A stretch of DNA of 64,000 nt from Bacilliculturomica massiliensis (GTDB lineage: Bacteria > Bacillota > Clostridia > Peptostreptococcales > Anaerovoracaceae), in NCBI RefSeq assembly GCF_900605495.1, contig NZ_LR027601.1, forward strand, positions 62,001-126,000. Reading direction: 5' to 3'. The notes under the pieces are model-generated. The model saw nothing but the letters and a program-made list of their open reading frames with translations. It did no database searches and had not been told where the DNA came from. This document shows positions 1 to 13,312 of the stretch, piece by piece; positions within the stretch are counted from its first letter, which is position 1, and every line of letters starts with the position of its first letter. A program made the translations under genes and the position numbers.

Positions 1-1143
1 GAGCAGACCTTCACTTCCTTTCTGGGAACCACGATCCACACGATCAGTTCTGAAATTCCCATACACGACGGCGGAAAGATGGTAGGGGTGGCGGATATCG
101 CCATCTATCTCGACAAGCCCATCGAGAAGAAGAATCTGAGCATCGAGTTTAACACGGATCAATATCTGAATCAAAACAACGGCTACGATCTGGAGGATAT
201 CATCACCCAGGATCCCAATTTGAATGATATAAAGGAAAAGATCCGTCTCAGCAGCGACAGCGACGCGCCGGTGCTGGTCTACGGAAAGACGGGGACGGGA
301 AAAGAGCTGATCGTGAACGCTGTCCACAAATGCAGTTCAAGGCACGACGGCCCTCTGATCGTGCAGAATTGCGCGGCCATACCGGCCACGCTGCTTGAAA
401 GCATACTCTTTGGAACGGTGCGGGGCAGCTTTACCGGAGCCAGCGACACCATGGGTCTGTTTGAGATGGCGGACAACGGAACCCTCTTTCTTGACGAGAT
501 CAACTCCATGGAGCTGGAAGCCCAGGCGAAGATCCTGCGGGCCATTGAAGAACAGAAAATACGCAGGATCGGCGATAAGAGAGTGCGCGATGTAAACGTG
601 CGGATCATCGCAGCCATGAATGAAGACCCTCTGGAGTGCGTGAAGCAGCGGAAGATACGGGAAGACCTGTACTACAGGCTCAGCGTCATACGCTATGATC
701 TGCCGGAGCTGAAAGAAAGGCGGCAGGATATTCCGCTTCTCATGGAGTATTTCCGAAAAGAGCTGAATCAGAAACTGAATAAAAACATCATCGAGTATTC
801 TGATCAGGTCAAACGGGTCTTTATGAACTACGACTGGCCCGGAAACGTCCGGGAGCTGAAAAACGTCATCGAAGGCGCTTACCATCTGAATTACGGCGCG
901 ACCATCGACGTTGAAAATATACCGAAGTATATGCTCGACAACATTGATATAGGGAAGATCGTTATAGAAGATACTTCGGATAAGTCGCTGGAGGAACTGG
1001 TGTCGGAATTTGAGAAGAAGCTCATCGAAACAAAGTACGTGGAGAATGACAGAAGATTATCAAGGACAGCCAAGGCGCTGCAGATATCCAAGCAGGGGCT
1101 CTGGTACAAGATCCGCAAATATAATATCGATCAGAAATATTAA
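1..1143 (+). CDS. Sigma-54-dependent transcriptional activator (5' end outside window)
   Basis: An enhancer-binding protein that would remodel sigma-54 RNA polymerase by ATP hydrolysis. The frame is open through the left edge, so the ATG at 79 is internal and the N-terminus (probably a PAS-type sensor; its last strands seem to lie in codons 1-40) is missing. Visible: Walker A GKTGTGKE (283-306, where GESGTGKE is common), the sigma-54-contacting loop as GSFTGA (424-441), Walker B GTLFLDEI, the arginine-rich sensor region, the WPGNVRELKN motif, and a C-terminal Fis-type helix-turn-helix (LSRTAKALQISKQGLWYKI). It lies about 0.9 kb upstream of a -24/-12 promoter on the same strand, so it is the likely activator of the downstream catabolic operon. 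The effector is unknown. Confidence 0.95.
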   Translation, partial: EQTFTSFLGTTIHTISSEIPIHDGGKMVGVADIAIYLDKPIEKKNLSIEFNTDQYLNQNNGYDLEDIITQDPNLNDIKEKIRLSSDSDAPVLVYGKTGTGKELIVNAVHKCSSRHDGPLIVQNCAAIPATLLESILFGTVRGSFTGASDTMGLFEMADNGTLFLDEINSMELEAQAKILRAIEEQKIRRIGDKRVRDVNVRIIAAMNEDPLECVKQRKIREDLYYRLSVIRYDLPELKERRQDIPLLMEYFRKELNQKLNKNIIEYSDQVKRVFMNYDWPGNVRELKNVIEGAYHLNYGATIDVENIPKYMLDNIDIGKIVIEDTSDKSLEELVSEFEKKLIETKYVENDRRLSRTAKALQISKQGLWYKIRKYNIDQKY

Positions 1144-1175
1144 AAGCTATCAATATTAAAAACAATCTTTCAGGA

Positions 1176-1213
1176 ACCGTCAATCGCACAGGCGATTGGC
1201 GGTATTATATTAT
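1176..1213 (+). terminator. Intrinsic terminator of the sigma-54 activator gene
   Basis: A 12-bp stem (ACCGTCAATCGC / GCGATTGGCGGT, one G-T wobble) with an ACAG loop lies 33 nt after the stop codon and is followed by an AT-rich stretch rather than a clean T-run. Termination is inferred. Confidence 0.6.
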
Positions 1214-1493
1214 GTGGATCGAATCATCCGTTGATCGAAAACACGAAAGGACCTGTTTTTTCTTTTTGCCTGCTATCAACACTCAAAAAAGAAAAAAACA
1301 GAGGACGCAGCAGGAACTTGAACGGTTTGCCTTGTCGATCTATGTCGCTTTTTTCTTTTTGTAAGCAATTCTGTGTTTAAAACGAAAAATATTTTCCATA
1401 TTTTTAATATTAGATATGTATTATCCATTTTATTTTCGTTTTTGGAGCTTTTGTGAGGGCAAAAAGAAAAAATCAAGAAAAGGACCCGCATTT

Positions 1494-1690
1494 TCCTTGG
1501 CTGGCCGGCTTTCGGTATTCAGGAACTGTTCCACCAGGCATCTGAAGGGTTCCCGGCATTGATCCCGGAGCTTTTGGGTACAGGAAGGAGGCACGAGACT
1601 TCATAATCTGCCCCCTCAGCGGGGAGACAGCGATACAGGCAGATGAGGAAAGTGTAAAGAGGAGGAGCGGAAAGGCTCCTCTTTTTATGC
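1494..1690 (+). ncRNA. Candidate structured non-coding RNA
   Basis: A GC-rich island of about 200 nt inside an AT-rich gene-free stretch. It holds nested inverted repeats: ATCTGCC / GGCAGAT enclosing CCCC-tcag-GGGG (about 1607-1644), and GGAAC / GTTCC near its start. It ends in a clear intrinsic terminator (1662-1686). No convincing coding frame crosses it. I could not match it to 6S RNA, SRP RNA, RNase P RNA or tmRNA. The composition change plus terminal hairpin suggest a small RNA gene, but the boundaries are guesses. Confidence 0.3.
1662..1686 (+). terminator. Intrinsic terminator after the candidate ncRNA
   Basis: GAGGAGC-ggaaag-GCTCCTC followed by TTTTT, a compact textbook rho-independent terminator. 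No protein gene lies immediately upstream, which is why a short transcript is proposed there. Confidence 0.75.
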
Positions 1691-1825
1691 GGTCAGAGAT
1701 CCCGCCCCCCTCTTTTTATAACATAGGAAAAACTTTTTCACAGCAGGGAGACGAAGCTGAGGAAAGGAAGGAGATGGGGAATGGCGGGGCGAAATTTGTC
1801 GAAATAGAAGGAATTAAGTGGAAAA

Positions 1826-1853
1826 CGTCAAAACATTTTTACGTTAATTGACG
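1826..1853 (+). promoter_or_regulatory. Possible upstream activator site (inverted repeat)
   Basis: CGTCAA (1826-1831) and TTGACG (1848-1853) form an inverted repeat in AT-rich DNA about 220-250 bp upstream of the -24/-12 promoter, a usual distance for an enhancer bound by a sigma-54 activator. Position and symmetry are the only evidence. Confidence 0.3.
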
Positions 1854-2072
1854 CTTTTTTAACGAGATTTTGAAAGGATAAAAGAAATTAAGGTGAAAAA
1901 TGTAAGAGAAACAAGGGTAAAACGTAAAAAAATTTAGACGGAAAAGAAGAAAAGATCAAAATAGTAAAAAAACTTTGACAAGCCGATCCTTATTATTGAA
2001 AAAGAGAGATAAAATCCACAGAAAAATGCGATATGATAGGGGAAATCGACGCAAATATGCTGTTTTTTTAAA

Positions 2073-2090
2073 TTGGCACACTATTTGCAA
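2073..2090 (+). promoter_or_regulatory. Sigma-54 (-24/-12) promoter
   Basis: TTGGCACACTATTTGCAA matches the sigma-54 consensus TGGCAC-N5-TTGCA, with the invariant GG (2075-2076) and GC (2087-2088) separated by exactly 10 nt. Transcription would begin near 2100, just before the decayed enolase-superfamily gene and the NhaC/CoA-transferase operon. A sigma-54 activator gene lies just upstream, which supports the call. Confidence 0.85.
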
Positions 2091-2139
2091 TTATATATAG
2101 ATATCCTAGGATGAAATAGTTACAGAAAGAGGTGGCTGT

Positions 2140-2645
2140 CTGAAAATTGTCGATGTAAGGTACGGCGGGTGGAAGTTCTTCTGAAGAAATCCTTTCCATC
2201 CTGCTGGAACTCGGGGAATCCCGAAAGGAACGTTTCGTTACTATTGCGGAAGTTATCACCGATGAGGGTATCCACGGCTATGGAGCCGTCTGTGATTCAA
2301 GCCGGCTGTCCGCCGGCGTGTGGGATTCGCAGATGGGCCCGCCGCTGATCGGGAAAGAGATCGAACAGCTGGAGGATATATTCACCAGCCTGGTCAACAC
2401 ATCCTTGTACGCATATGGTCCGTGGTGTGTTGAGGTCTTCCTGTGGGATGCTCTTGGAAAAGATGCGAATCGATCCGCCGCGCTGGGAAAACACGTGGGG
2501 AACATCATGACACGTGGGGAATATCATGCTGACCGGGTCTCTGGCGGTGGAATAAGACGGATACATAGACATACCGCAGAAGTCGGAGCTTAGCGCAGAG
2601 CTGTATCACGAACTGATGAATAAGTATACTGTCCTGAGAAGATAA
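2140..2645 (+). pseudogene. Decayed mandelate racemase/muconate lactonizing enzyme (enolase superfamily)
   Basis: Three reading frames hold pieces of one MR/MLE-family protein. Frame 1 gives LKIVDVRYGG after an RBS-like GAAAGAGGTGG, but the expected ATG is CTG (2140). The frame shifts near 2160-2170, and the N-terminal capping domain continues in frame 2 (VTIAEVITDEGIHGYG; GPPLIGKEIEQLEDIF; VEVFLWDALGKDA) to a stop at 2593. The family's C-terminal end then appears in frame 3 (DGYIDIPQKSELSAEL, stop TAA at 2643-2645). The catalytic barrel between them is missing: about 165 codons remain of a usual 360-400. It sits directly downstream of the sigma-54 promoter, so it was probably once the first gene of this operon. 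The original substrate is unknown. Confidence 0.75.
2491..2528. repeat. 19-bp tandem duplication
   Basis: Two adjacent copies of ACACGTGGGGAACATCATG, the second with one T for C change. It lies inside the enolase-superfamily pseudogene near the point where the conserved N-terminal domain stops, so it is probably a scar of decay by replication slippage. Confidence 0.8.
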
Positions 2646-2745
2646 CAGGGAAGTAGCATTTACAGATTCGCTTTTATCAAAATGAATTATTTTATAACTT
2701 CAGTTAGACCGCATAAGCGGCAGAAAATGAAACAGGAGGAATAAC

Positions 2746-4314
2746 ATGGAGACTGTAGGTGTATTAAGTTTATTGCCCCCTATACTCGCTATTGTTTTAG
2801 CTATTTTAACGAAACAGGTACTGATCTCACTGTTTGCAGGAATTTGGATCGGAGCAACGCTTCTCTGCGGCTTTAATCCTATCGACGGATTGATGGCTAC
2901 CTTTGGAGATTATATCTTCCCGTCCATGGGAGATCCCTCCAACGCGGCCGTTATCTTCATGGCCATGTTCTGCGGGTCCTTCGCCCTCCTTCTCGAAAAG
3001 GGCGGCGGCGCTCACGCATTTGCTGAGAGACTTACAAAGAAAGTAAAGACCAGCAAGCAGGCTCAGGTACTGGCGGCTGCCGGCGGAACCGCGATCTTCT
3101 TCAGCGACTCTTCCAACCCGGTACTCGTAGGACCGATCTTCAAGCCTATCACGGACGCTCTGAAGGTGTCCAGAGAAAAGCTGGCTTACATCTGCGACGC
3201 TACCACGGCGACCATGCCCAGCATGTTCCCCTTTACCGCCTGGGGCGCCTATATCATTTCGATCATCGCCCAGCAGTTTGAGCAGAACAATGTACAGGCC
3301 AACCCCATGGGCGAGTTTGTAAAGGCTGTTCCCTTCAGCTTCTACACCATCGGCGCCGTCATCATGGTATACATGATCGCGATCTCCGGATTCGACTTCG
3401 GACCCATGAAGAAAGCGGAAGACAGAGCCAGACTGACAGGCAAGCTGGTAGACGACGGCGACGCGTCCCCGGCCCTGATCCGTCAGGTGATCCTGCCTGA
3501 GGGATCGAAGCCGACAATGTCCAGCATGATCGTACCTCTGCTGGTACTGGTAGGCGTGATCTTTGCAGGATTCCTGTGGACCGGCGATTTCCCCAACGTG
3601 GGAGTTATGACGGCTCTGGCCAACGCCAGCACCACAAAGTGCCTGGTGGTCGGATTCTTCGTAGCCAGCATCGTAGCCGCAGTCTACACCGTAAGAAACA
3701 AAGTAATGACCCCGAAGGAAGCGGTAGATACCTTCTTCGAAGGAATCAGAATGATGATGGACGCCGTACTGATCCTGACTCTGTCCTGGGCTATCGGTTC
3801 TGTGTGTAAGGCAGTGGGAACCACCGCGTTTGTTATCGCACACACCGAGAATTTCCTGACGCCCACCGTCATGTACATCGCTGTTTTCGTGATCGCCGCG
3901 TTCACCGCGTTTACCACAGGAACCTCCTGGGGTACCTTCGCGATCTTCCTGCCCATTTCCATTCCGCTGGCCTTGGCCATCAACGCTCCTCTGGGAGCCG
4001 CCATCGGTACTGTAATCTCCGGCGGGATCTTCGGCGACCACTGCTCGCCGATCTCCGATACCACCGTACTGTCCTCCATGGGAGCAAGCTGTAATCACAT
4101 CGCTCACGTGAAGACGCAGCTGCCATACGCCCTGTGCGTGGCGGCGGCCGCAGCCGTGGCTTATCTGGCTACGGGCCTGATGTACAATACGCTGGGAGCT
4201 ACGGGAAGCGCCATTCTGGGAATCGCTATCACCGTGGGACTTTCCTTCGTGATCGCAGTTACGCTCTGCAAGATGGAAGGTGGAAGGATCAAAGACCAAA
4301 AGGCATCGGCTTAA
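2746..4314 (+). CDS. NhaC-family Na+/H+ antiporter-like transporter
   Basis: A 522-residue polytopic membrane protein of the NhaC/ArsB-GntP-like ion transporter group. Long hydrophobic segments span the whole length, and the conserved family block GTSWGTFAIFLPISIPLALA is followed by GDHCSPISDTT (about residues 429-439). RBS CAGGAGGAA precedes the ATG. It is the first intact gene after the sigma-54 promoter. Family members exchange Na+ for H+, or an organic acid or amino acid together with Na+/H+. In this context it may import the substrate, or export the product, of the catabolic enzymes that follow. The real substrate cannot be read from sequence. I leave the gene symbol blank because orthology to Bacillus nhaC is not certain. 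Confidence 0.85.
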   Translation: METVGVLSLLPPILAIVLAILTKQVLISLFAGIWIGATLLCGFNPIDGLMATFGDYIFPSMGDPSNAAVIFMAMFCGSFALLLEKGGGAHAFAERLTKKVKTSKQAQVLAAAGGTAIFFSDSSNPVLVGPIFKPITDALKVSREKLAYICDATTATMPSMFPFTAWGAYIISIIAQQFEQNNVQANPMGEFVKAVPFSFYTIGAVIMVYMIAISGFDFGPMKKAEDRARLTGKLVDDGDASPALIRQVILPEGSKPTMSSMIVPLLVLVGVIFAGFLWTGDFPNVGVMTALANASTTKCLVVGFFVASIVAAVYTVRNKVMTPKEAVDTFFEGIRMMMDAVLILTLSWAIGSVCKAVGTTAFVIAHTENFLTPTVMYIAVFVIAAFTAFTTGTSWGTFAIFLPISIPLALAINAPLGAAIGTVISGGIFGDHCSPISDTTVLSSMGASCNHIAHVKTQLPYALCVAAAAAVAYLATGLMYNTLGATGSAILGIAITVGLSFVIAVTLCKMEGGRIKDQKASA

Positions 4315-4404
4315 CGGAGGATGCCGGCACTTCAAGGCGTCAAACGTTATTTCAATGAATAAATAAAATATTTCAATTCAATCATTCATGGAGGGATTAT
4401 CATC

Positions 4405-4821
4405 ATGGAAGACAGAAAATTCGTCATCGACAATGCCAAAGGACCGGAATTAAAGGAAATGAGACTTCGCTATAAGACCAACTGCGAAAACAACCATTAT
4501 TCCGATTATATGCTGTCCGGCCCTCAGATTCTGCAGTATGCTATCGACGCGCTGACAGACTTCACAGTAAGACGCGATGACGGAGACGGTTCTCTGCTGG
4601 CCAATGTTAACGCCAACTTCCGCGCCGGACTGTTCGGCGGCGACACCATCGAAGTCATCATCTGGCTTGAAAGTGAAGGCAGCCGTTCCAGAACTTACGG
4701 CTATAGAATCTACAAGATCATCGAGAACCACAGAGAGCAGGATGTGTTCGAAGTACTCGACGAGCCTCAGCTGATCCTCGACGGCACAGGAGTTGCCGTG
4801 GTCAAGAAGCCGAGAGCATAA
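4405..4821 (+). CDS. Hotdog-fold protein, 3-aminobutyryl-CoA / beta-alanyl-CoA ammonia-lyase-like
   Basis: A 138-residue single-domain protein that resembles the small hotdog enzymes Kal (3-aminobutyryl-CoA ammonia-lyase of clostridial lysine fermentation) and Acl (beta-alanyl-CoA ammonia-lyase of Clostridium propionicum). Shared traits are the size, an N-terminal LRYKTNCENNHYSDYMLSG segment, the helix ILQYAIDALTDFTVRRDDGDGSLLANV and the strand pattern FRAGLFGGDTIEVIIWL. These enzymes remove ammonia from beta-aminoacyl-CoA esters to give enoyl-CoA. Neighbouring CoA-transferases could supply the CoA ester. RBS GGAGGG. A thioesterase-like role cannot be excluded; the family assignment is firmer than the substrate. 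Confidence 0.7.
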   Translation: MEDRKFVIDNAKGPELKEMRLRYKTNCENNHYSDYMLSGPQILQYAIDALTDFTVRRDDGDGSLLANVNANFRAGLFGGDTIEVIIWLESEGSRSRTYGYRIYKIIENHREQDVFEVLDEPQLILDGTGVAVVKKPRA

Positions 4822-4876
4822 ACAAGCGTACAAGTGCCCTTAATGCGATGAGGGTGAATTCCGTAATAGTCCAATT

Positions 4877-4914
4877 CCACAAGGGTGAACCCGTTTTCGG
4901 GTTCACTCTTGTGG
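4877..4914 (+). other. Strong intercistronic hairpin without T-run
   Basis: CCACAAGGGTGAACCC and GGGTTCACTCTTGTGG form a 16-bp stem with one wobble and a GTTTTC loop between the hotdog gene and the first CoA-transferase. No T-run follows (CAATAGGG), so it is more likely a transcript-stabilising or processing hairpin within the operon than a full terminator. Confidence 0.65.
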
Positions 4915-4943
4915 CAATAGGGAAAGGATAGGATGAATACAGC

Positions 4944-6176
4944 ATGAAGCCACTGGAAGGAATCAAAGTGTTGGATTTTTCACAGCTGCACGGGGCGGCC
5001 TACGCCACCATGCTGCTGGCTGACTTCGGAGCGGAGATCGTCAAGATCGAAAATGTAAAGGGAGGAGACAAACTCCGTGAGCTGGCGCCGAAGAACGGGA
5101 ACTACAGTGTTTACCACGGATATCTCAACAGAGGGAAAAAAAGCGTGGCCGTGGATCTGAAGACGGACGAAGGGAAAGCCATTGTAAAAGAACTGGTCAA
5201 AGACGCCGACGTGGTGTGCGAGAATTTCAAGTACGGCGCCATGGAAAAGCTGGGACTGGGATACGAGGAACTGCGCAGGATCAATCCGAAGCTGGTGTAC
5301 GCTTCGTTGACCGGGTACGGACGCAAGGGAGAAAATAAAAGCAAAGCCTGCTTTGACAATACAGCTCAGGCATACAGCGGCATGCTGGATATGTCGGGAT
5401 ATTTTAACGGTCCGCCCATCACCATGGGGGCTCAGTTGGGCAATCTCTACGGAGGGATGCACCTGGCGCTGGGGATCGTGCTGGCGGTGATCCATGTGAG
5501 AAAAGGCGGAGAAGGGCAGTTCGTGGACGTAGCGGCATCAGACTCTCTGTTCGCGGTGCTGGAGGACGGCATGGTGGACTGTTCTGTTCTGGGGCACAAG
5601 CATACCAGAAACGGCAACATGTCTCAGGCCATCGCGCCCTACGATACATACGAGACACTGGACGGATTTGTGTCCATCGGCGTATCCAGCGATTTTCAGT
5701 GGGAAAAATTCTGCCGTGTGATGGGTATGGAGGATCTGCTGGAGGATCCCAGATTTTCAAGCAACGCCAAGCGGGGCGAACATTATCTGGACGGCGGTCT
5801 CCGAGACCGGATCGAGAGTATCACAAGTACCATGAAGAAGTTCGAGATAGAGGCCATGCTGGAAAAGGAAAACATCCCCTGCGGGTCGGTGTGCACTGTT
5901 CTGGAGGCCATGCAGAGCGAACAGATCAGCCACAGGGAAATGGTCCTTACGGTGGAAGATCCGCAGGTGGGATCTGTCAGCATGCCGGGTATACCGGCAA
6001 AATTGGGAAAGACGCCGGGAAGCGTGGACCGGGGCGCGCCGCTGCTGGGAGAAGATACCGGCCGGTACCTGAAGAAGCTGGGATACGAAGATGAGGAGAT
6101 CCGTCGGCTGACCGCACAGGGGATCGTGACAGACGGGGAGCCGAAACAGCGTTGTGAAGAGGAGGCGAGAGGATGA
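4944..6176 (+). CDS. CaiB/BaiF family (class III) CoA-transferase, first of pair
   Basis: 410 residues, the usual length for class III CoA-transferases such as CaiB, formyl-CoA transferase and BbsE/BbsF. The N-terminal motif LEGIKVLDFSQLHGAAYATMLLADFGAEIVKIE is followed by FKYGAMEKLGLGYEELRRINPKLVYASLTGYG. GQFVDVAASDS carries the conserved Asp (about D200) expected to form the acyl-anhydride intermediate. It would move CoA between a donor acyl-CoA and a free acid in the cytoplasm. The last 4 nt overlap the next CoA-transferase (ATGA), indicating translational coupling and possibly a hetero-oligomer. It differs from its neighbour along most of its length, so it is not a recent duplicate. Confidence 0.92.
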   Translation: MKPLEGIKVLDFSQLHGAAYATMLLADFGAEIVKIENVKGGDKLRELAPKNGNYSVYHGYLNRGKKSVAVDLKTDEGKAIVKELVKDADVVCENFKYGAMEKLGLGYEELRRINPKLVYASLTGYGRKGENKSKACFDNTAQAYSGMLDMSGYFNGPPITMGAQLGNLYGGMHLALGIVLAVIHVRKGGEGQFVDVAASDSLFAVLEDGMVDCSVLGHKHTRNGNMSQAIAPYDTYETLDGFVSIGVSSDFQWEKFCRVMGMEDLLEDPRFSSNAKRGEHYLDGGLRDRIESITSTMKKFEIEAMLEKENIPCGSVCTVLEAMQSEQISHREMVLTVEDPQVGSVSMPGIPAKLGKTPGSVDRGAPLLGEDTGRYLKKLGYEDEEIRRLTAQGIVTDGEPKQRCEEEARG

Positions 6177-7390
6177 AACCACTTTCGGGCGTGACAGTCC
6201 TGGATTTTACACAGGCATTCAGCGGGCCCTACTGCACCTTGAACCTGGCCGACTACGGCGCGCGGGTCATCAAGGTAGAACGGACGGGGACGGGCGACCA
6301 GACCCGTGAATGGATGCCCCTGGCGGAAAACGGCGGCAGCGCCTATTTCGCTCTGTACAATAGAAATAAAGAAGGGATCGCTGTAGACCTGTCGAAGGAG
6401 GAGGGCAAGGAGCTGATCCGGCGGCTGGTGAAGAAGGCGGATATTGTGGTGAACAACTTCAAGGTGGGCACCATGGATAAGCTGGGAATCGGCTATGAGG
6501 AACTGAAAAAGATCAAGCCGGACCTGGTGTTTGCTTCCGTCACGGGCTACGGTCAGACCGGCCCGCTGGCGAAACTGGCGGCTTACGACAATATTATCGA
6601 GGCGACCTGCGGGCTCATGGGGCAGTCAGGGTTTCCCGACCGTCAGCCGGTCCGTTCAGGCTGTTCCATCGGGGACAGCTACACTGGACTGATGGCGGCC
6701 TTCGGGATCGCGGCGGCCTATTATCACAAACTGATGACCGGCGAGGGTCAGACGGTGGATGTGGCTATGCAGGACTCTCTGTTTGCCAGCATTGAAGACG
6801 CGATCCTGGAATACGGCGTCAGCGGGACTGTCATGGAGCGCAGCGGCAACAGCCGCAGCCACATGGTGGCGCCATACGATGTGATCCAGTGCAAAGACGG
6901 GTGGTATACGGTGGCCGCTGTCACGGAAAAAGGCTGGGCCGAATTCTGCCGGGAGGCGGATATGCCGGAGCTTTTGGAAGACCCCCGGTTTCAGGACAAC
7001 GAGCTGCGGTGCAGGCACAACGCTGAGCTGATCGGCGCCATGGAGCCCTTTTTCAGAGACAAGACCATGGAAGAGCTGAAGGCCATATTCAGCTGTGAGA
7101 ATTTTGCGGCGGCTCCGGTCATCGACGCGGGGCAGACCATGCGGGAGCCGCACATGCTGCAGAGGGATATGGTGGTGGAGATCGACGATCCCAACGTAGG
7201 CAAATACAAGGCCGTGGGAATCCCCATCAAATTTGAAAAGACGCCGGCGGAGGTGGTGAAAGCATCGCCCCTGCTGGGAGAAGATACGATGGGTATTCTC
7301 ATGGAGATCGGCTATACGGAAGAAGAGGTGAGAACGCTTGCGGCTGCAGGCGTAGTGGAACTGGCAGAGGGGGGCGACTGTGGAAGATAG
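6173..7390 (+). CDS. CaiB/BaiF family (class III) CoA-transferase, second of pair
   Basis: 405 residues with the same architecture as the preceding gene: LSGVTVLDFTQAFSGPYCTLNLADYGARVIKVE at the N-terminus, then FKVGTMDKLGIGYEELKKIKPDLVFASVTGYGQTGP, and GQTVDVAMQDS with the predicted catalytic Asp near D201. It begins in the ATGA overlap with the upstream gene, and its 3' end overlaps the following PLP-enzyme gene by 11 nt. Both members of the pair keep the catalytic Asp, so either each has its own substrate or they form a heteromer as in BbsEF-type transferases. The substrate is unknown; an amino-acid-derived carboxylate is a reasonable guess from the neighbours. Confidence 0.92.
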   Translation: MKPLSGVTVLDFTQAFSGPYCTLNLADYGARVIKVERTGTGDQTREWMPLAENGGSAYFALYNRNKEGIAVDLSKEEGKELIRRLVKKADIVVNNFKVGTMDKLGIGYEELKKIKPDLVFASVTGYGQTGPLAKLAAYDNIIEATCGLMGQSGFPDRQPVRSGCSIGDSYTGLMAAFGIAAAYYHKLMTGEGQTVDVAMQDSLFASIEDAILEYGVSGTVMERSGNSRSHMVAPYDVIQCKDGWYTVAAVTEKGWAEFCREADMPELLEDPRFQDNELRCRHNAELIGAMEPFFRDKTMEELKAIFSCENFAAAPVIDAGQTMREPHMLQRDMVVEIDDPNVGKYKAVGIPIKFEKTPAEVVKASPLLGEDTMGILMEIGYTEEEVRTLAAAGVVELAEGGDCGR

Positions 7391-8615
7391 AGAGCGCGAA
7401 AAGAAAGAAAACGTTTACGCAGGATTTGACCGGCAGATCGACCGGCGGGAGACCGGAGCGTACAAGTGGAGCGGCGGCAGATACGGGCTGGAAGAAGACC
7501 GGATCATTCCCATGTGGGTGGCGGATATGGACTTCGCCTGTCCGGAGCCGGTGGCAACGGCGGTAAAGGAGAGAGCGGCGCATCCGCTGTACGGCTATAC
7601 CGTCAGGGATCAGGGCTACGAAGCAGTCATCGCCGGCTGGATGAAACGCAGGTACGGTTTTGAGCCCAGGGAGGAATGGCTGGCTTTCGCCCCTCCGGGC
7701 GTGCTTTACGCGATCTATACCATGCTGCGCATATTGACGGAAAAGGGCGACGGGGTAATTGTGCTGATGCCCAACTACGATCCCCTGCACGAGGTAGTCA
7801 CAAAGAGCGGGCGCAGACTGGCGGAATCTCAGCTTTTGATCAAAGACGGGAAGATCGAAATTGATTTTGACGATCTGGAATCAAAACTGGCCGGGGACGT
7901 AAAAGTCATGATCATTTCCAACCCCCACAATCCTTCCGGACGGGTGTGGCGGCGGGAAGAACTGCAGCGGGCGGCGGAGCTCTGCAGAAGATACGGCGTC
8001 TTTGTGATCTCCGACGAGATCCACGCTGATTTTGTGTCTCAAAAGTATGGCCACACAGCCTTTCCCTCCCTGGGAGAGGAGGAGGCGTTAAACTGCATGG
8101 CCTGTTATTCCGCAAACAAAGGGTTCAATCTGGGCGGTCTGCAGACCTCGACTCTGGTCATCGCCGATCCGGAAAAGCGCCGTGCCTTCGATGAAGAAAT
8201 GGGCATCGGCCAGACCAGACTGGACAATATCTTCGGCATTACCGCCACCAGGGCCGCTTACAGCGATCCCCTGTGCGAGAAGTGGCTGGACGAAGCCATC
8301 GAGTATGTGGACGGAAACAAGGAGCTGGTGTACGACTATCTGAGACGGTATGTGCCGGAGATCAGGGCGGTCCGGTCTGAGGGGACCTATCTGATGTGGC
8401 TGGACTGCAGCGCTCTGGGGATGGACGGAAAAGAGCTGGAGCAATTTTTCCTGGAGTCCGCCAGGGTACAGCCCTGCATGGGCTACGAGTTCGGCGGCCA
8501 GGGAGGGTCCGGCGATCGATTTGTGCGGCTCAACGCGGCCTGTCCGCGGACCATCGTCATGGCTGCGCTTGACCGGATCAAAAACGCGGTGTCCGGTCTG
8601 CGGGGCGGCAGGTAA
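7380..8615 (+). CDS. MalY/PatB-family PLP-dependent C-S lyase or aminotransferase
   Basis: 411 residues, fold-type I PLP enzyme of the MalY/PatB group. The signature VIPMWVADMDF-type segment reads IIPMWVADMDFACPEPV; NPHNPSGRVW and DEIHADF follow, and the PLP lysine lies in SANKGFNLGGL (K247). The start is a GTG at 7380 that overlaps the upstream CoA-transferase by 11 nt. Family members are cystathionine beta-lyases, cysteine desulfhydrases or aminotransferases. In this operon an aminotransferase or beta-lyase step on an amino acid is plausible, but the family name does not settle the reaction. Confidence 0.88.
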   Translation: MEDREREKKENVYAGFDRQIDRRETGAYKWSGGRYGLEEDRIIPMWVADMDFACPEPVATAVKERAAHPLYGYTVRDQGYEAVIAGWMKRRYGFEPREEWLAFAPPGVLYAIYTMLRILTEKGDGVIVLMPNYDPLHEVVTKSGRRLAESQLLIKDGKIEIDFDDLESKLAGDVKVMIISNPHNPSGRVWRREELQRAAELCRRYGVFVISDEIHADFVSQKYGHTAFPSLGEEEALNCMACYSANKGFNLGGLQTSTLVIADPEKRRAFDEEMGIGQTRLDNIFGITATRAAYSDPLCEKWLDEAIEYVDGNKELVYDYLRRYVPEIRAVRSEGTYLMWLDCSALGMDGKELEQFFLESARVQPCMGYEFGGQGGSGDRFVRLNAACPRTIVMAALDRIKNAVSGLRGGR

Positions 8616-8677
8616 ACGCGGTCGGTGTACGAGAATAAAATATCGGTGCACGAGAGTGAGGAAAAGGAGGAGCTAAA

Positions 8678-9841
8678 ATGCTGAGACTGAAGAAATTGCT
8701 TGTTCTGGGCGGAGGCGGCCTGATCGGTTCGGAGGTGGTGAAAGATCTGTCGGCCACCAGCGAGTTCGACAGCGTCACGGTGGCGGACGGGAATCTGGAA
8801 AAGATCACGAAACTGGTGGAGTCCCTTTCAGATCCCAGGTTTTCAGCGGTACAGATCGAGATCGAGAACATGGACGAGGTAGTTGAACTGATGAAGCCCT
8901 TTGATCTGGTGTGCAACTGTCTGCCGTTTCAGTACGATACTTACATCAACCGCTGCTGCGTGGAAGCCGGCGTGACGGGAACGGATCTGGGGGCCACCAA
9001 GGATCAGCTGGCCATGAACGATCTGCTGGAGGAAAAAGGCCTGCTGTTCGTGGTCTGCGACGGTATCTCGCCCGGGACCTCCAACATGATCGCCTCTTTC
9101 GCCAACAGGAAGCTGGACCGACTGGACGAAGTACATATCGCCTTCGCTTCCTTCCGGGCTATCCAGACGGCGCCGGGGCTGGTGCGCACCACCCTGTGGG
9201 AGCTGGACCCCAACGAGACCATGCGCAGCTATTATGCCGACGGGGAGCAGCACTATGTGGGGCCCTTTACCGGCGAGAAGATCGTGAACTTCCCCGAGCC
9301 CTTCGGCCCTCAGCCGGCGTACTATGTGCCCCACAATGAGGTCTACACCATACCGGCCACTATGCCCACGGTGAAGACCTGTACCATCCGCGGAGCGTGG
9401 ACGCCGAGACAGCACCGGTTCTTGAAGTTCATGAATGATTACGGGTTCTTTACCACGCCCCCCGTCAAGGTGGGCGACACGGAGATCGCTCCCATCGAAT
9501 TTATAGAGAAATTCATCTTCGCGAATCCTGATCTGGCCAAGGAAGATGTGTGGGGATTCTGCCTGACCGTCGACTGCAAAGGCATTCTCGACGGCGAGGA
9601 GGTAGAACTGTCATTCTACACCACCACGCCCGGTCAGGACGAGTGGGGGATCCCCGCCTGTTACGCCAAGAGCACCGCCTGCTCCATGTCTGTGGGCGTC
9701 CAGCTGCTGGCCAGGGGCATCGACCAGGTGGGCATCCGCACTCCGGATCAGGTCTATGATCCGGAAGAATATCTGGAAGAATTGCGCAAGAGGAAAGTGA
9801 TCCTTCACGAACGCAGCGGACGGTTTGGGCTGCCACAATAA
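8678..9841 (+). CDS. Saccharopine dehydrogenase-like NAD(P)-binding protein
   Basis: 387 residues with an N-terminal Rossmann motif (LVLGGGGLIGSEVVKDL, residues about 8-24) and the saccharopine dehydrogenase-like middle (VCNCLPFQYDTYINRCCVEAGVTGTDLGA; GISPGTSNMIA). The C-terminal part matches the lysine/saccharopine dehydrogenase group in length. RBS AAGGAGG stands 8 nt before the ATG. As the last gene of the sigma-54 operon it probably carries out an NAD(P)-linked amino-acid or iminium oxidoreduction. A neighbour resembling clostridial lysine-fermentation ammonia-lyase makes a lysine-like or diamino substrate attractive but unproven. Confidence 0.85.
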   Translation: MLRLKKLLVLGGGGLIGSEVVKDLSATSEFDSVTVADGNLEKITKLVESLSDPRFSAVQIEIENMDEVVELMKPFDLVCNCLPFQYDTYINRCCVEAGVTGTDLGATKDQLAMNDLLEEKGLLFVVCDGISPGTSNMIASFANRKLDRLDEVHIAFASFRAIQTAPGLVRTTLWELDPNETMRSYYADGEQHYVGPFTGEKIVNFPEPFGPQPAYYVPHNEVYTIPATMPTVKTCTIRGAWTPRQHRFLKFMNDYGFFTTPPVKVGDTEIAPIEFIEKFIFANPDLAKEDVWGFCLTVDCKGILDGEEVELSFYTTTPGQDEWGIPACYAKSTACSMSVGVQLLARGIDQVGIRTPDQVYDPEEYLEELRKRKVILHERSGRFGLPQ

Positions 9842-9873
9842 TCGATCTCTTCTCATAAAAACCATATAACGCG

Positions 9874-9907
9874 AAAACAGCCGGAGAAACTCTCTCCGGC
9901 TGTTTTT
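9874..9907. terminator. Bidirectional intrinsic terminator
   Basis: AAAACAGCCGGAGA-AACTC-TCTCCGGCTGTTTTT is a 14-bp stem with A-run before and T-run after, between the convergent saccharopine-dehydrogenase-like and MATE genes. It can serve both strands. Confidence 0.9.
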
Positions 9908-9965
9908 GCAGGGATCGGTCTAGGCAGGACTGAGGGACGGCTGAACCAGCATGGGGCTGCGGGCC

Positions 9966-10025
9966 TGAGCTTGCGGGTCTGTGAGCTTGCGGGTTTGTGA
10001 GCTTGCGGGTTTGTGAGCTTGCGGG
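9966..10025. repeat. 16-bp tandem repeat, 3.75 copies
   Basis: Unit TGAGCTTGCGGGTTTG at 9966, 9982, 9998 and 10014 (the last partial), with one C/T difference in the first copy. It lies in the gap between convergent genes. The unit length is not a multiple of three and no gene is involved. Copy number is likely variable between strains (inference). Confidence 0.9.
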
Positions 10026-10064
10026 CGGGTCTGCAGAGGGAGCCTGCGCAGCCGCGGCCGCCGT

Positions 10065-11441
10065 CTAAGCAGCTTCTTCCACAAGCCCCTTTGATCTCCA
10101 TTTTCCGCTCTGGATGCGGAAGAAGGAGAAGAGGGAGCCGATCCCCCAGCCGATGGGTATGGACCACCAGATGGCGCTGGCGCCAATGAAATAGGCCAGA
10201 ACGTAGGCGATGACTACCCGGCAGATCAGGTTGGAGAAGGAGCTGAGCATGAAAGCGCCCATATCGCCGGCGCCCCGCAGAAGACCGTTGCCCACGAACA
10301 TGAAGCCCATGAGCACGTAGAAGAGGGAGACGGTCTTCATGTATTTCAGTCCATAGTTCATGGCGTGGCTGCCGGAACCGTTGTTCAGGAACCAGCCCAG
10401 CAGATGGGGCCCGAAGAGGTAGATGATCAGCGTGATGAGGGCGGAAAAGATAAGCACCATGAGAAGGCTGGCCCGGTATCCTTCTTTTACGCGATCGGCT
10501 TTTTTAGCCCCGATGTTCTGCGCCGTGTAGCTGGACATGGCGTTGGAGAAATTCATATTGGGCATCATGGCCAGCGTGTCGATCTTCGTGGCGGCCGTGT
10601 ATCCGGCGACGAATACTTTTCCGTAGGAGTTGACCAGTCCCTGCATGAACATCATGCTCAGGGAAACGATGGATTGCTGAAGCATGGAAGGAACGCCCAC
10701 TTTTGCAATGCGCCGGGCGGCCCGAAATTCGAAATAGCGGAACCGCTGGGAGGCGTCGGAGGGATCGAAGCCTTCCTCGTTAGGCATTTTTCTAAGACGC
10801 CTGATCAGCACGTAAAAGGAGATCACGGCGCACAGGCCCTGAGCTGCCAGGGTGGCCCAGGCCACGCCTGCCACGCCCATGTGGAAGTGGATCACGAAGA
10901 GCAGGTCCAGAACGATATTGGTCAGGGCCGATATCATTAAAAATTTCAGAGGAGTCTTGCTGTCTCCCAGGGCGTTGTAGATGCCGTTCAGGGAATTGTA
11001 AAGGAACAGGAAGATGGCTCCGCCGAAATAGATCCGCAGATAAGAAAGAGCGTCCAGTATGATGTCGGGGTCGGTTCCCAGCAGCCGAAGGAGGGGCAGG
11101 GCGGCCACCTCGCCCAGGGCCATGATCACCAGGCCCACCACGCCCAGAGCGACCAGAGCGGTGGACACGGTCACCTTCATCTCACGGATGTGGCCGGCGC
11201 CAAAGAGCTGTGAGATGACTACGGTGCAGCCCATGGACAGGCCGGCGGCGATGGCGATAGAGAGGAAGACCACGGGGAAGGAAGAACCCACGGCCGCCAG
11301 CGCGTCCTCGCCCACAAACTGGCCGACGACCACAGAATCCACCATATTATAGAGCTGTTGAAATAAGTTTCCCACCACCATGGGCAGTGCGAAAAAGAAG
11401 AGCAATCGCAGAGGATTTCCCTCTGTCAGATTTTTAATCAT
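10065..11441 (-). CDS. MATE family multidrug efflux transporter
   Basis: 458 residues with about 12 predicted membrane segments in two homologous halves. The N-terminus is typical (NLTEGNPLRLLFFFALPMVVGNLFQQLYNMVDSVVVGQFVG), and the second half begins RIAKVGVPSMLQQSIVSLSMMFMQGLVNSYG. MATE proteins export drugs or metabolites driven by Na+ or H+. Its start overlaps the end of the upstream MarR-family gene by 8 nt, so the two form one operon in which MarR probably represses both. The exported compound is unknown. Confidence 0.95.
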   Translation of the reverse strand: MIKNLTEGNPLRLLFFFALPMVVGNLFQQLYNMVDSVVVGQFVGEDALAAVGSSFPVVFLSIAIAAGLSMGCTVVISQLFGAGHIREMKVTVSTALVALGVVGLVIMALGEVAALPLLRLLGTDPDIILDALSYLRIYFGGAIFLFLYNSLNGIYNALGDSKTPLKFLMISALTNIVLDLLFVIHFHMGVAGVAWATLAAQGLCAVISFYVLIRRLRKMPNEEGFDPSDASQRFRYFEFRAARRIAKVGVPSMLQQSIVSLSMMFMQGLVNSYGKVFVAGYTAATKIDTLAMMPNMNFSNAMSSYTAQNIGAKKADRVKEGYRASLLMVLIFSALITLIIYLFGPHLLGWFLNNGSGSHAMNYGLKYMKTVSLFYVLMGFMFVGNGLLRGAGDMGAFMLSSFSNLICRVVIAYVLAYFIGASAIWWSIPIGWGIGSLFSFFRIQSGKWRSKGLVEEAA

Positions 11442-11922
11442 GTTTTACCTCCGTTTCAGCCGGCTGGGAAGTACTTGAACCTCCGCAGGGGCCGGTGTAT
11501 TTTTCCGCGTGACTGCGTCTGTATTCCACGGCGTTTTCCGCAATCCTGCTCAGAAATTCCTGATGCAGCCGTTTTTCTTCTTCTGTAAAACCAGAATAGC
11601 AGATATCGTCCCAGTCTTTGTAAACTTTACTGATCTGGGTGAGCATTTCCCGGCCTTTGTCTGAGAGAGAGACGAATTTCTGCCGCTTGTCTCTGGCGTT
11701 GGTCTCGCGCTGGATCAGTCCTTTATCTTCCAGCAGGGAGACGGATCTGGCGATGCGTCCCTTATCCAGATTCATCTGACAGCCCAGTTCATCCTGATGA
11801 TACCGTTTCTCTTTCAGCAGCATGAGCAGCTTGCTCTCCAGCGGGGAGAGACCGTACTTCTCCATTTTTGTGCGGATATAAAATGCTTCACAGCGGCGGA
11901 ATATCCCGATATTGGGGTTCAT
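11434..11922 (-). CDS. MarR-family transcriptional regulator of the MATE operon
   Basis: 162 residues from MNPNIGIFRRC; this ATG was chosen because AGGAG stands 7 nt upstream, while a longer in-frame reading to 12054 would run through the promoter. The winged helix covers about residues 30-110 (LSPLESKLLMLLKEKRYHQDELGCQMNLDKGRIARSVSLLEDKGLIQRE), with the wing DARDKRQKFVSLSDKG-like and dimerisation helices at both ends. It overlaps the MATE gene by 8 nt. MarR proteins release DNA on binding phenolic or drug ligands, so ligand-induced export is the likely logic. Confidence 0.9.
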   Translation of the reverse strand: MNPNIGIFRRCEAFYIRTKMEKYGLSPLESKLLMLLKEKRYHQDELGCQMNLDKGRIARSVSLLEDKGLIQRETNARDKRQKFVSLSDKGREMLTQISKVYKDWDDICYSGFTEEEKRLHQEFLSRIAENAVEYRRSHAEKYTGPCGGSSTSQPAETEVKHD

Positions 11923-12000
11923 GGTCAGGCTCCTTTTTCTCTTCATCATAGATCCCGGAAATACACCGATATAGTTGCACAGATCAACGGTTGGACAAAA

Positions 12001-12058
12001 CAACTGTTGAATTTCACAACTAATATCATATGACGGAGGAGTACCGTTTGTCAACTGT
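12001..12058 (-). promoter_or_regulatory. Candidate MarR operator region with repeated CAACTGTT
   Basis: CAACTGTTG (12001-12009, nearly self-complementary) and CAACTGTT (12052-12059) flank the -10 and overlap the -35 of the marR-MATE promoter, with CACAACT between. Repeated half-sites straddling a promoter are what MarR autorepression would need. Assignment rests on position only. Confidence 0.4.
12025..12054 (-). promoter_or_regulatory. Promoter of the marR-MATE operon
   Basis: On the minus strand TTGACA (12049-12054), 18-nt spacer, TATGAT (12025-12030). It lies about 100 nt upstream of the MarR start codon. Confidence 0.7.
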
Positions 12059-12071
12059 TATTTCCGTATGT

Positions 12072-12113
12072 TATTAAAAAGCCGGGGGCCGGATATTTAA
12101 ATCCGGCCCCCGG
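12072..12113 (-). terminator. Intrinsic terminator of cfa
   Basis: Read on the minus strand, GCCGGGGGCCGGA and TCCGGCCCCCGGC form a 13-bp GC stem followed by TTTTTAATAA. It lies about 42 nt past the cfa stop. Confidence 0.9.
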
Positions 12114-12154
12114 CCAGTGGTTCATGCCGCGACTATCGGAGGCGCTGTGCAGCG

Positions 12155-13312
12155 CTATACTGTCCGCAGCATAGGCAGGTCGTTGTTGACGCCCTTGGAC
12201 ATCAGGATCTGGTGCAGATCGATGATACCGTTTTTAAAGGTGGCTGCGCAGGCTGCCAGGTAGAGATCCCACATGCGTACAAACTCTTCGCCTCTGGCGG
12301 CGCGGATCTCGTCCACATGCTCCGTGAAGTTTTTCCGCCAGCACAGAAGGGTCCTGCTGTAGTGGCGGCGAAGGCTCTCCACGTCGAGAGTGTAGAAGTT
12401 ATAGTCCGCCATGAGGGCGATGATCTCCCGCAGGCTGGGGATGGTGCCGCCGGGGAAGATGTATTTTTTCATCCACGCGTCGCCGGGGTGTTCCTTCAGA
12501 GCGCTGATATAGTGGAGGAGGAACAGACCGCCGGGGGCGAGGACGGAATTTACGCAGTCCAGAAATTCGCCGTAGTTTCCGCGCCCCACGTGCTCCAGCA
12601 TACCTACGCTGACGGCCCGGTCGAAGGCGAGTCCCGTCTTTTTCAGATCTCGGTAATCCATGATCTCACAGGTAAGCCGGCCGCCCAGGCCTGCCGCCGC
12701 GATATCGGCGGCAAATTTATCGTGCTGTTCTTTGCTGAGCGTGATGCCAAAACCCTTCACACCTCTGGTCTCTGCGGCGCGGCGAAGGAGAAATCCCCAG
12801 CCGCAGCCGATGTCCAGCAGGGTCATCCCGGCCTTCAGCTGCAGTTTGTCCAGAATGTGATCCACCTTGTCGATCTGCGCCTGATCCAGGCTTTCGCCCT
12901 CTTCCTTAAAATAGGCGCAGGAGTAGCTCATGCTCTTGTCAAGCCACAGCGAATAAAAATCGTTGCCGATGTCGTAGTGGGAGGAGACCTCCACTTTTTG
13001 ATTCTTCTTTGACAGAGATGAATGGATCAGCTTTTTCAGGGCGTTTTCGTCTGTAGTGAATTTGCCCATGTTCCCCAGAAAGAGATCCAGTACTTCATAC
13101 AGATCTCTGTCCACTTGGATGTGGCCGCGCATGTAAGCCTCGCCCAGGGCGAGGGATGTGCTGGTCATCAGTTCTTTTTTGTCCAGATCTCCTTTCAGCG
13201 TGACCGTGAATTCCGGATGGCCGGAACCGATCTGCCGCTGGCCGTTTTCTGTTTTGATCAGAAAAGGTACGTCGATGATCTTTGAAAGGTAATCTGCCAG
13301 AAAATTGTTCAT
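12155..13312 (-). CDS. cfa: Cyclopropane-fatty-acyl-phospholipid synthase
   Basis: 385 residues, typical for Cfa. It transfers a methylene from S-adenosylmethionine to the double bond of unsaturated phospholipid acyl chains at the membrane. Seen: an N-terminal lipid-facing domain, SSHYDIGNDFYSLWLDKSMSYSCAYF (about residues 110-134), SAM motif I LLDIGCGWG (165-173), EHVGRGNYGEF and IFPGGTIPSL. An RBS (GGAGATG) precedes the ATG. A long leader with its own terminator lies upstream, so expression may be controlled by premature termination. It is the first of a run of lipid genes but is transcribed away from the fab cluster. Confidence 0.95.
   Translation of the reverse strand: MNNFLADYLSKIIDVPFLIKTENGQRQIGSGHPEFTVTLKGDLDKKELMTSTSLALGEAYMRGHIQVDRDLYEVLDLFLGNMGKFTTDENALKKLIHSSLSKKNQKVEVSSHYDIGNDFYSLWLDKSMSYSCAYFKEEGESLDQAQIDKVDHILDKLQLKAGMTLLDIGCGWGFLLRRAAETRGVKGFGITLSKEQHDKFAADIAAAGLGGRLTCEIMDYRDLKKTGLAFDRAVSVGMLEHVGRGNYGEFLDCVNSVLAPGGLFLLHYISALKEHPGDAWMKKYIFPGGTIPSLREIIALMADYNFYTLDVESLRRHYSRTLLCWRKNFTEHVDEIRAARGEEFVRMWDLYLAACAATFKNGIIDLHQILMSKGVNNDLPMLRTV

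Follow-up and report, generated by a model that had tools for sequence, protein, structure and literature searches.

A sigma-54-controlled gene cluster of Bacilliculturomica massiliensis that may ferment a short beta-amino acid

The window analyzed in this report is a 64-kb stretch (G000:C19:62001-126000; other loci are also labelled by genome (G) and locus (L) numbers) of the 4.5-Mb genome of Bacilliculturomica massiliensis. Near its start, a sigma-54 promoter precedes genes for an NhaC-family transporter, a hotdog protein, two class III coenzyme A (CoA)-transferase homologues (CaiB1 and CaiB2), a PatB/MalY-family enzyme that uses pyridoxal phosphate (PLP) and a saccharopine-dehydrogenase-like oxidoreductase (SDH) (Table 1). 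Which compound does this gene cluster metabolize? That it imports a small amino acid, couples it to CoA and removes its ammonia is very probable. Our fuller answer, for which we see an even chance, is that it is a catabolic operon, controlled by sigma-54 and an enhancer-binding protein, whose substrate is either a small beta-amino acid or something from which such an acid is formed. The acid would most likely have three or four carbons (C3-C4) and be beta-alanine, 3-aminobutyrate or one of their near analogues. Beta-alanine itself is the favourite among individual substrates, a tentative choice with well under an even chance, and we are surer of the class of chemistry than of the chain length. 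What we read directly from the sequence is which genes are present and in what order, the promoter, the conservation and the replacement of the catalytic Asp in CaiB1; from these we infer the pathway steps.

All of the genes named in an earlier note on this DNA proved to be intact open reading frames (ORFs) of matching families at the positions and on the strand that it gave. Its near-perfect -24/-12 promoter was likewise upheld. The promoter is more than a chance match and is typical of the genome, which contains 30 exact matches to the pattern (versus 0 for a reversed control); the window has no other such site, and 0.08 would be expected there by chance. A related cluster, in genome G417, has a sigma-54 site (TGGCACATTTTTTGC) at the equivalent place (L077:15510). 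The gene for an AAA+ sigma-54 activator is adjacent, so that both elements of a sigma-54-dependent operon with an enhancer-binding protein are present. The full activator ORF is L009:11488-13143, with its stop at window position 1143, and a homologue that is 60% identical stands at the head of the G417 cluster. This activator is the probable regulator of the unit, and its adjacency suggests that it controls the promoter. Because its gene starts upstream of the window and has a terminator-like hairpin behind it, we place it beside the unit and not inside it. The gene layout thus suggests one sigma-54-driven unit from position 2074 to about 9909. The single transcription unit of the earlier note would run from the promoter through SDH and exclude the activator, and a broken enolase-superfamily gene in the leader had gone unreported.

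The gene order was found to be conserved in other Clostridia, in three species of two genera in all, as the earlier note had proposed to check. SDH orthologues with 78-80% identity occur in three of the 350 genomes of the family, and the next matches are only 27-30% identical. Two further species, of another genus, keep the order and have genes for an acyl-CoA dehydrogenase (ACAD) and the electron transfer flavoprotein subunits EtfB and EtfA after SDH in both cases. In G417, on the same contig as CALWNX010000052.1 (a metagenome-assembled genome (MAG) of an uncultured Clostridia organism), the order is activator, LUD-domain gene, sigma-54 site, NhaC, hotdog, CaiB1, CaiB2, PatB, SDH, ACAD, EtfB, EtfA, a glycerate-kinase-like gene and a divergent enolase. 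A contig of a goat-rectum MAG, JAFSHN010000074.1, starts at CaiB1 and then has the same order through to the enolase. Identities between the window and G417 are 63% for NhaC, 72% for the hotdog protein, 72% for CaiB1, 67% for CaiB2, 59% for PatB and 80% for SDH. Both named loci were found through the SDH alignment, in a scan with two short patterns that more distant loci would escape; the hotdog protein alone gave no match in a pattern scan of 84,980 named genomes. The nearest model to the ACAD of the cluster is the acryloyl-CoA reductase AcrC (451.7 bits versus a cutoff of 640).

How would such a unit activate its substrate? The earlier note had described two overlapping class III CoA-transferases. 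The overlap is indeed 4 bases and both proteins belong to the family (CaiB2 also overlaps PatB, by 11 bases). At the position of the catalytic residue, read from an alignment to YfdW and which we take to correspond to Asp169 of formyl-CoA transferase, CaiB2 has Asp, together with a full-length family match, but CaiB1 has Asn in all three clusters. In a related pair in genome G122, both proteins have Asp. The absent Asp weakens the reading of two independent CoA-transferases. Because CaiB1 lacks this residue and the genes overlap, the pair (COA-TRANSFERASES) is probably one heteromeric transferase with CaiB1 as a non-catalytic pseudoenzyme subunit. Benzylsuccinate CoA-transferase BbsEF is a possible two-chain parallel, and a two-chain PDB entry, 9fn0, was among the structures matched.

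The hotdog protein, previously described as similar to 3-aminobutyryl-CoA ammonia lyase (Kal) and beta-alanyl-CoA:ammonia lyase (Acl), indeed groups with CoA ammonia-lyases, but lies in the clade of neither. The protein itself matches 4HBT weakly and the Kal model (NF052388) with E=2.4e-15. A profile built from six module proteins finds Acl with E=5.8e-15 and the best thioesterase with 0.44, which rules out a thioesterase identity. Residues Y32, G39, D48, E83, G92, S95 and K104 are common to Kals, module proteins and Acl, and nine columns, among them Y32, D48, E83, S95 and K104, are invariant in the module proteins and Kals. In a maximum-likelihood tree, the hotdog proteins of the window, G417, G065, G122, G101 and G118 form one group (support 100/99) apart from Acl and from the Kals, here those that adjoin 3-keto-5-aminohexanoate cleavage enzymes, although the tree is small, its branches are long and its Acl sequence is partial. 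We therefore predict a relative of beta-aminoacyl-CoA ammonia-lyases that forms a third clade beside Kal and Acl. An AlphaFold model (mean predicted local distance difference test (pLDDT) 45.5) was too poor for a fold search.

Members of this hotdog clade have recurrent partners. The G065 gene neighbours an AcrC-like ACAD, EtfBA, a class I CoA-transferase and a 2-hydroxyacyl-CoA dehydratase activase; the G122 gene neighbours an ACAD, EtfBA, an activator and two CaiB proteins (44% identical to CaiB1 and 54% to CaiB2). In G101 and G118 the neighbours are an ACAD, a CaiB, an enoyl-CoA-hydratase-like gene and an activator, and sigma-54 sites precede the genes in both. Elsewhere, three tandem Acl-side hotdog genes and an AcrC-like ACAD adjoin PreA, dihydropyrimidinase and a carbamoylase-family amidase (L133:770-9850, genome G651), an apparent route from uracil through beta-alanine to propionate. 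The partners of the clade members and this setting lead us to prefer a C3-C4 beta-amino acid.

What kind of amine might SDH act on? Its NADP-binding and C-terminal domains both score above cutoff, placing it in the saccharopine dehydrogenase superfamily, and it has full-length homology to carboxyspermidine dehydrogenase (E=4.5e-20). At 32 bits against a curated cutoff of 800 for the carboxynorspermidine model, it falls outside the carboxy(nor)spermidine synthases/dehydrogenases. A 27-protein tree gives it a sister clade (100/99) of six members, four of which (L078, L079, L081 and L083) adjoin a gene for a 2-aminoethylphosphonate (AEP)-binding protein that scores above its curated cutoff. The same arrangement is seen by eye in L082, and L080 has nearby only a PhnX-like gene below cutoff; PhnX was confirmed for two of the loci, L079 and L083, and PhnW turned up in L079 alone. 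Given this placement in AEP operons, an amine dehydrogenase for AEP-like substrates is a reasonable guess for the sister clade, and the proteins of L078, L079, L081, L082 and L083 are candidate AEP dehydrogenases. AEP is the phosphonate analogue of beta-alanine. For these two reasons, we rank short beta-amino acids first among the substrate classes, and the placement suggests that SDH acts on a short amine resembling a beta-amino acid. Two sets of enzymes considered in this connection were set aside: the NAD-dependent PbfF, found in phosphonate clusters, falls in a different family, PF02826 (PMC12366243), and the FAD enzymes that PMC10590968 describes have no relationship to SDH. The AlphaFold model of SDH (mean pLDDT 44.6) is confident in the Rossmann part only and was too poor for a fold search.

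These observations can be arranged into a putative pathway. NhaC would import the substrate, and the heteromeric transferase, with CaiB2 catalytic and CaiB1 structural, would transfer CoA to the beta-amino acid by exchange. Elimination of ammonia by the hotdog enzyme would then give a 2-enoyl-CoA, which an acyl-CoA dehydrogenase with Etf would reduce, thereby disposing of electrons. SDH might oxidatively deaminate or cleave the same amine or its precursor, so that NAD(P)H is supplied in a balance of the Stickland type, and PatB might remodel or cleave a precursor. The core of this scheme (uptake of the substrate, exchange of CoA onto it and loss of ammonia from the resulting ester) had been suggested in the earlier note and fits, with the modifications that the two CoA-transferases are probably one heteromer and that a reductive step should be added, because both related clusters carry ACAD and Etf genes.

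Several findings weigh against a beta-amino-acid pathway of this form. No ACAD or Etf genes lie beside the unit in the window; a 72% identical ACAD homologue sits elsewhere in the genome, on G000:C17, in a different operon. The hotdog protein scores 56.9 bits against the curated Kal cutoff of 160, so its substrate may differ from that of Kal. SDH shares only about 30% identity with the AEP-operon clade and is roughly as distant from carboxyspermidine dehydrogenase, which makes the AEP connection a lead and not a test. The glycerate-kinase-like gene and divergent enolase added in both relatives have no use in the scheme, and PatB is unaccounted for by it.

PatB bears on the strongest competing explanation, in which the operon degrades a conjugate: PatB would beta-eliminate a C-S or C-N bond, SDH would cleave a secondary amine, or both, and the freed C3-C4 beta-amino (or beta-thio) acid would enter the same sequence of CoA exchange, elimination and reduction. 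PatB passes the curated cutoff for PatB-family C-S lyases (TIGR04350) and the solved structures closest to it are those of C-S lyases, while saccharopine- and carboxyspermidine-type relatives of SDH cleave secondary amines. Moreover, PatB and SDH occur in all three clusters, and the simpler G122 module (CoA-transferase pair, hotdog, ACAD and Etf) has neither. However, the neighbouring genes point to no candidate conjugate and the closest SDH clade sits with a primary amine, AEP, and we regard this explanation as unlikely, though not by far.

Less probable still is that the hotdog enzyme eliminates water, a thiol or a substituted amine, the operon then serving a hydroxy, thio or betaine acid. 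Its clade is distinct from both characterized ammonia-lyase groups, class III CoA-transferases work in oxalate, carnitine and mesaconate metabolism as well, and the glycerate-kinase-like and enolase-like genes of the relatives suggest hydroxy acids. Nevertheless, the protein retains those columns that do not vary among Kals and module proteins, NhaC, SDH and PatB are amino-acid-type families, and several members of the class stand in beta-alanine-like contexts. A gamma-butyrobetaine (gbu) or carnitine pathway, considered because of the combination of CaiB, ACAD and Etf, is neither supported nor formally excluded. A lysine-fermentation variant, in which the hotdog protein would be a second Kal and SDH would resemble 3,5-diaminohexanoate dehydrogenase, is very improbable and was rejected: despite the shared hotdog family, the setting in Clostridia, the weak Kal model match and a sigma-54 site upstream of the genome's own Kal, that canonical Kal is a separate gene in another operon, the window protein is below the Kal cutoff and outside the Kal clade, and no cleavage-enzyme or aminomutase gene is present in any of the three clusters. 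The site of the canonical Kal operon is an exact -24/-12 match at L046:9738 (G000:C20:475737) with an activator gene adjacent.

Does the proposed beta-amino-acid pathway correspond to one already described? The fermentation of beta-alanine by Clostridium propionicum (Acl; AcrC with Etf) resembles it in hotdog CoA ammonia-lyase homology and in CoA activation by exchange, and the related clusters, though not the cluster of the window, include an AcrC-like ACAD with Etf. The cluster of the window differs in its separate hotdog clade, two class III CoA-transferase genes, PatB, SDH, sigma-54 control and lack of adjacent ACAD/Etf genes. The beta-valine pathway of Pseudomonas SBV1 also activates a beta-amino acid with CoA and then eliminates ammonia from the CoA ester, but uses an ATP-dependent ligase and a crotonase-fold lyase (PMC4619459), in place of the predicted CoA transfer and hotdog lyase. 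Carboxyspermidine dehydrogenase and other SDH-family enzymes share full-length homology with SDH, whereas SDH has a catabolic setting and its nearest clade is in AEP operons. Sigma-54 regulons for amino acids in Clostridiales include OrdR with ord-ortBA-oraSEF-orr-nhaC, YctR with crt-gntT-caiB-bcd-etfAB and XcyR with malY-pepT (PMC6615313). These share the activator and -24/-12 promoter and, as single elements, NhaC, CaiB/Bcd/Etf or MalY, but none of the 39 activator groups in that reconstruction combines a hotdog lyase, CaiB pair, PatB and SDH. A full-text search of the open-access literature did not find the combination. Within the literature compared, the gene set, hotdog branch and substrate match no described pathway, in agreement with the earlier note as to the gene set.

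Table 1. Features of the sigma-54 unit and its flanks, in window coordinates.
Feature	Position	Strand	Evidence or remark
Sigma-54 activator (enhancer-binding protein), 3' part	1..1143	+	Sigma54_activat E=3e-60, HTH_8; start lies before window
Terminator-like hairpin 3' of activator gene	1176..1203	+	Such sites no commoner in scan than in shuffles; weak alone
-24/-12 (sigma-54) promoter TGGCACACTATTTGCA	2074..2089	+	Exact pattern match
Broken enolase-superfamily (MR_MLE_N) gene remnant in leader, between promoter and NhaC	2099..2578	+	PF02746 E=4e-5 across interrupted frames
NhaC-family transporter	2746..4314	+	PF03553 189.8 bits; 63% identical in G417
Hotdog protein, predicted beta-aminoacyl-CoA ammonia-lyase, new clade	4405..4821	+	Profile searches, tree
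Strong intercistronic hairpin in hotdog/CaiB1 gap, near-perfect, without U-run	4874..4918	+	-32.2 kcal/mol, z -7.6
CaiB1, class III CoA-transferase homologue, Asn167 at catalytic Asp position	4944..6176	+	CoA_transf_3 match, alignment
CaiB2, class III CoA-transferase with catalytic Asp168	6173..7390	+	PF02515 420 bits, full-length
PatB/MalY-family PLP enzyme, GTG start	7380..8615	+	TIGR04350 392 bits, cutoff 340
SDH, saccharopine-dehydrogenase-like oxidoreductase	8678..9841	+	PF03435 70.3 bits, PF16653 49.5 bits, both above cutoff
Strong hairpin between SDH and convergent gene	9871..9909		-30.8 kcal/mol, z -8.5

Two strong hairpins accompany the unit. The one between the hotdog and CaiB1 genes could be a processing or stability element or a partial terminator, through which the first and second halves of the unit might be expressed unequally, and the one after SDH is a probable (bidirectional) terminator that closes it. 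The convergent gene beyond looks, from reading its sequence, like a MATE-type transporter. No Rfam families were found in window positions 1-12500.

Other operons of the genome contain some of the same families. A second sigma-54 module on the contig of the window (L105:8068-15425, about 196-203 kb), with a one-mismatch sigma-54 site, has its own activator (58% identical to that of the window) and NhaC (48%), and holds a glycerate-kinase-like gene, a divergent enolase and a nickel-pincer-cofactor isomerase of group 22 (NF052515, 488.8 bits). The kinase and enolase pair thus lies in this module here and at the end of the hotdog operon in two related genomes. These conserved divergent enolases (L077:2765-4090, L096:9340-10623 and L105:12885-14168), always 3' of a glycerate-kinase-like gene, keep the two lysine motifs, have altered forms of the canonical GGSH, DEGGF and SHRSGE, and perhaps do not act on 2-phosphoglycerate. 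Tandem paralogues occur at G000:C14:34120-36696 with a Tct-type transporter. On G000:C17, the operon L090:9861-18330 encodes, with names assigned by reading the sequences, a DAACS-type transporter, an aminotransferase, an HpcH-type aldolase, an iron alcohol dehydrogenase, an enoyl-CoA hydratase, a class I CoA-transferase and an AcrC-like ACAD, and could take a hydroxy amino acid to propionyl-CoA, with malonate semialdehyde and 3-hydroxypropionate as intermediates.

We propose, with confidence somewhat short of even, that the cluster represents an undescribed fermentation in Clostridia of a short beta-amino acid or a conjugate of one. It would join a third clade of hotdog ammonia-lyases and a class III CoA-transferase with a pseudoenzyme subunit to a new amine dehydrogenase of the SDH family, whose sister clade would substitute for the transaminase PhnW in some AEP operons. 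If this is true, the cluster would extend the CoA-dependent fermentations of amino acids by one whose few genes form a defined set open to testing, and would add a new branch to the few known hotdog ammonia-lyases. The kinship of SDH with proteins of AEP operons would also provide a testable substrate class for oxidoreductases that are named by superfamily only.

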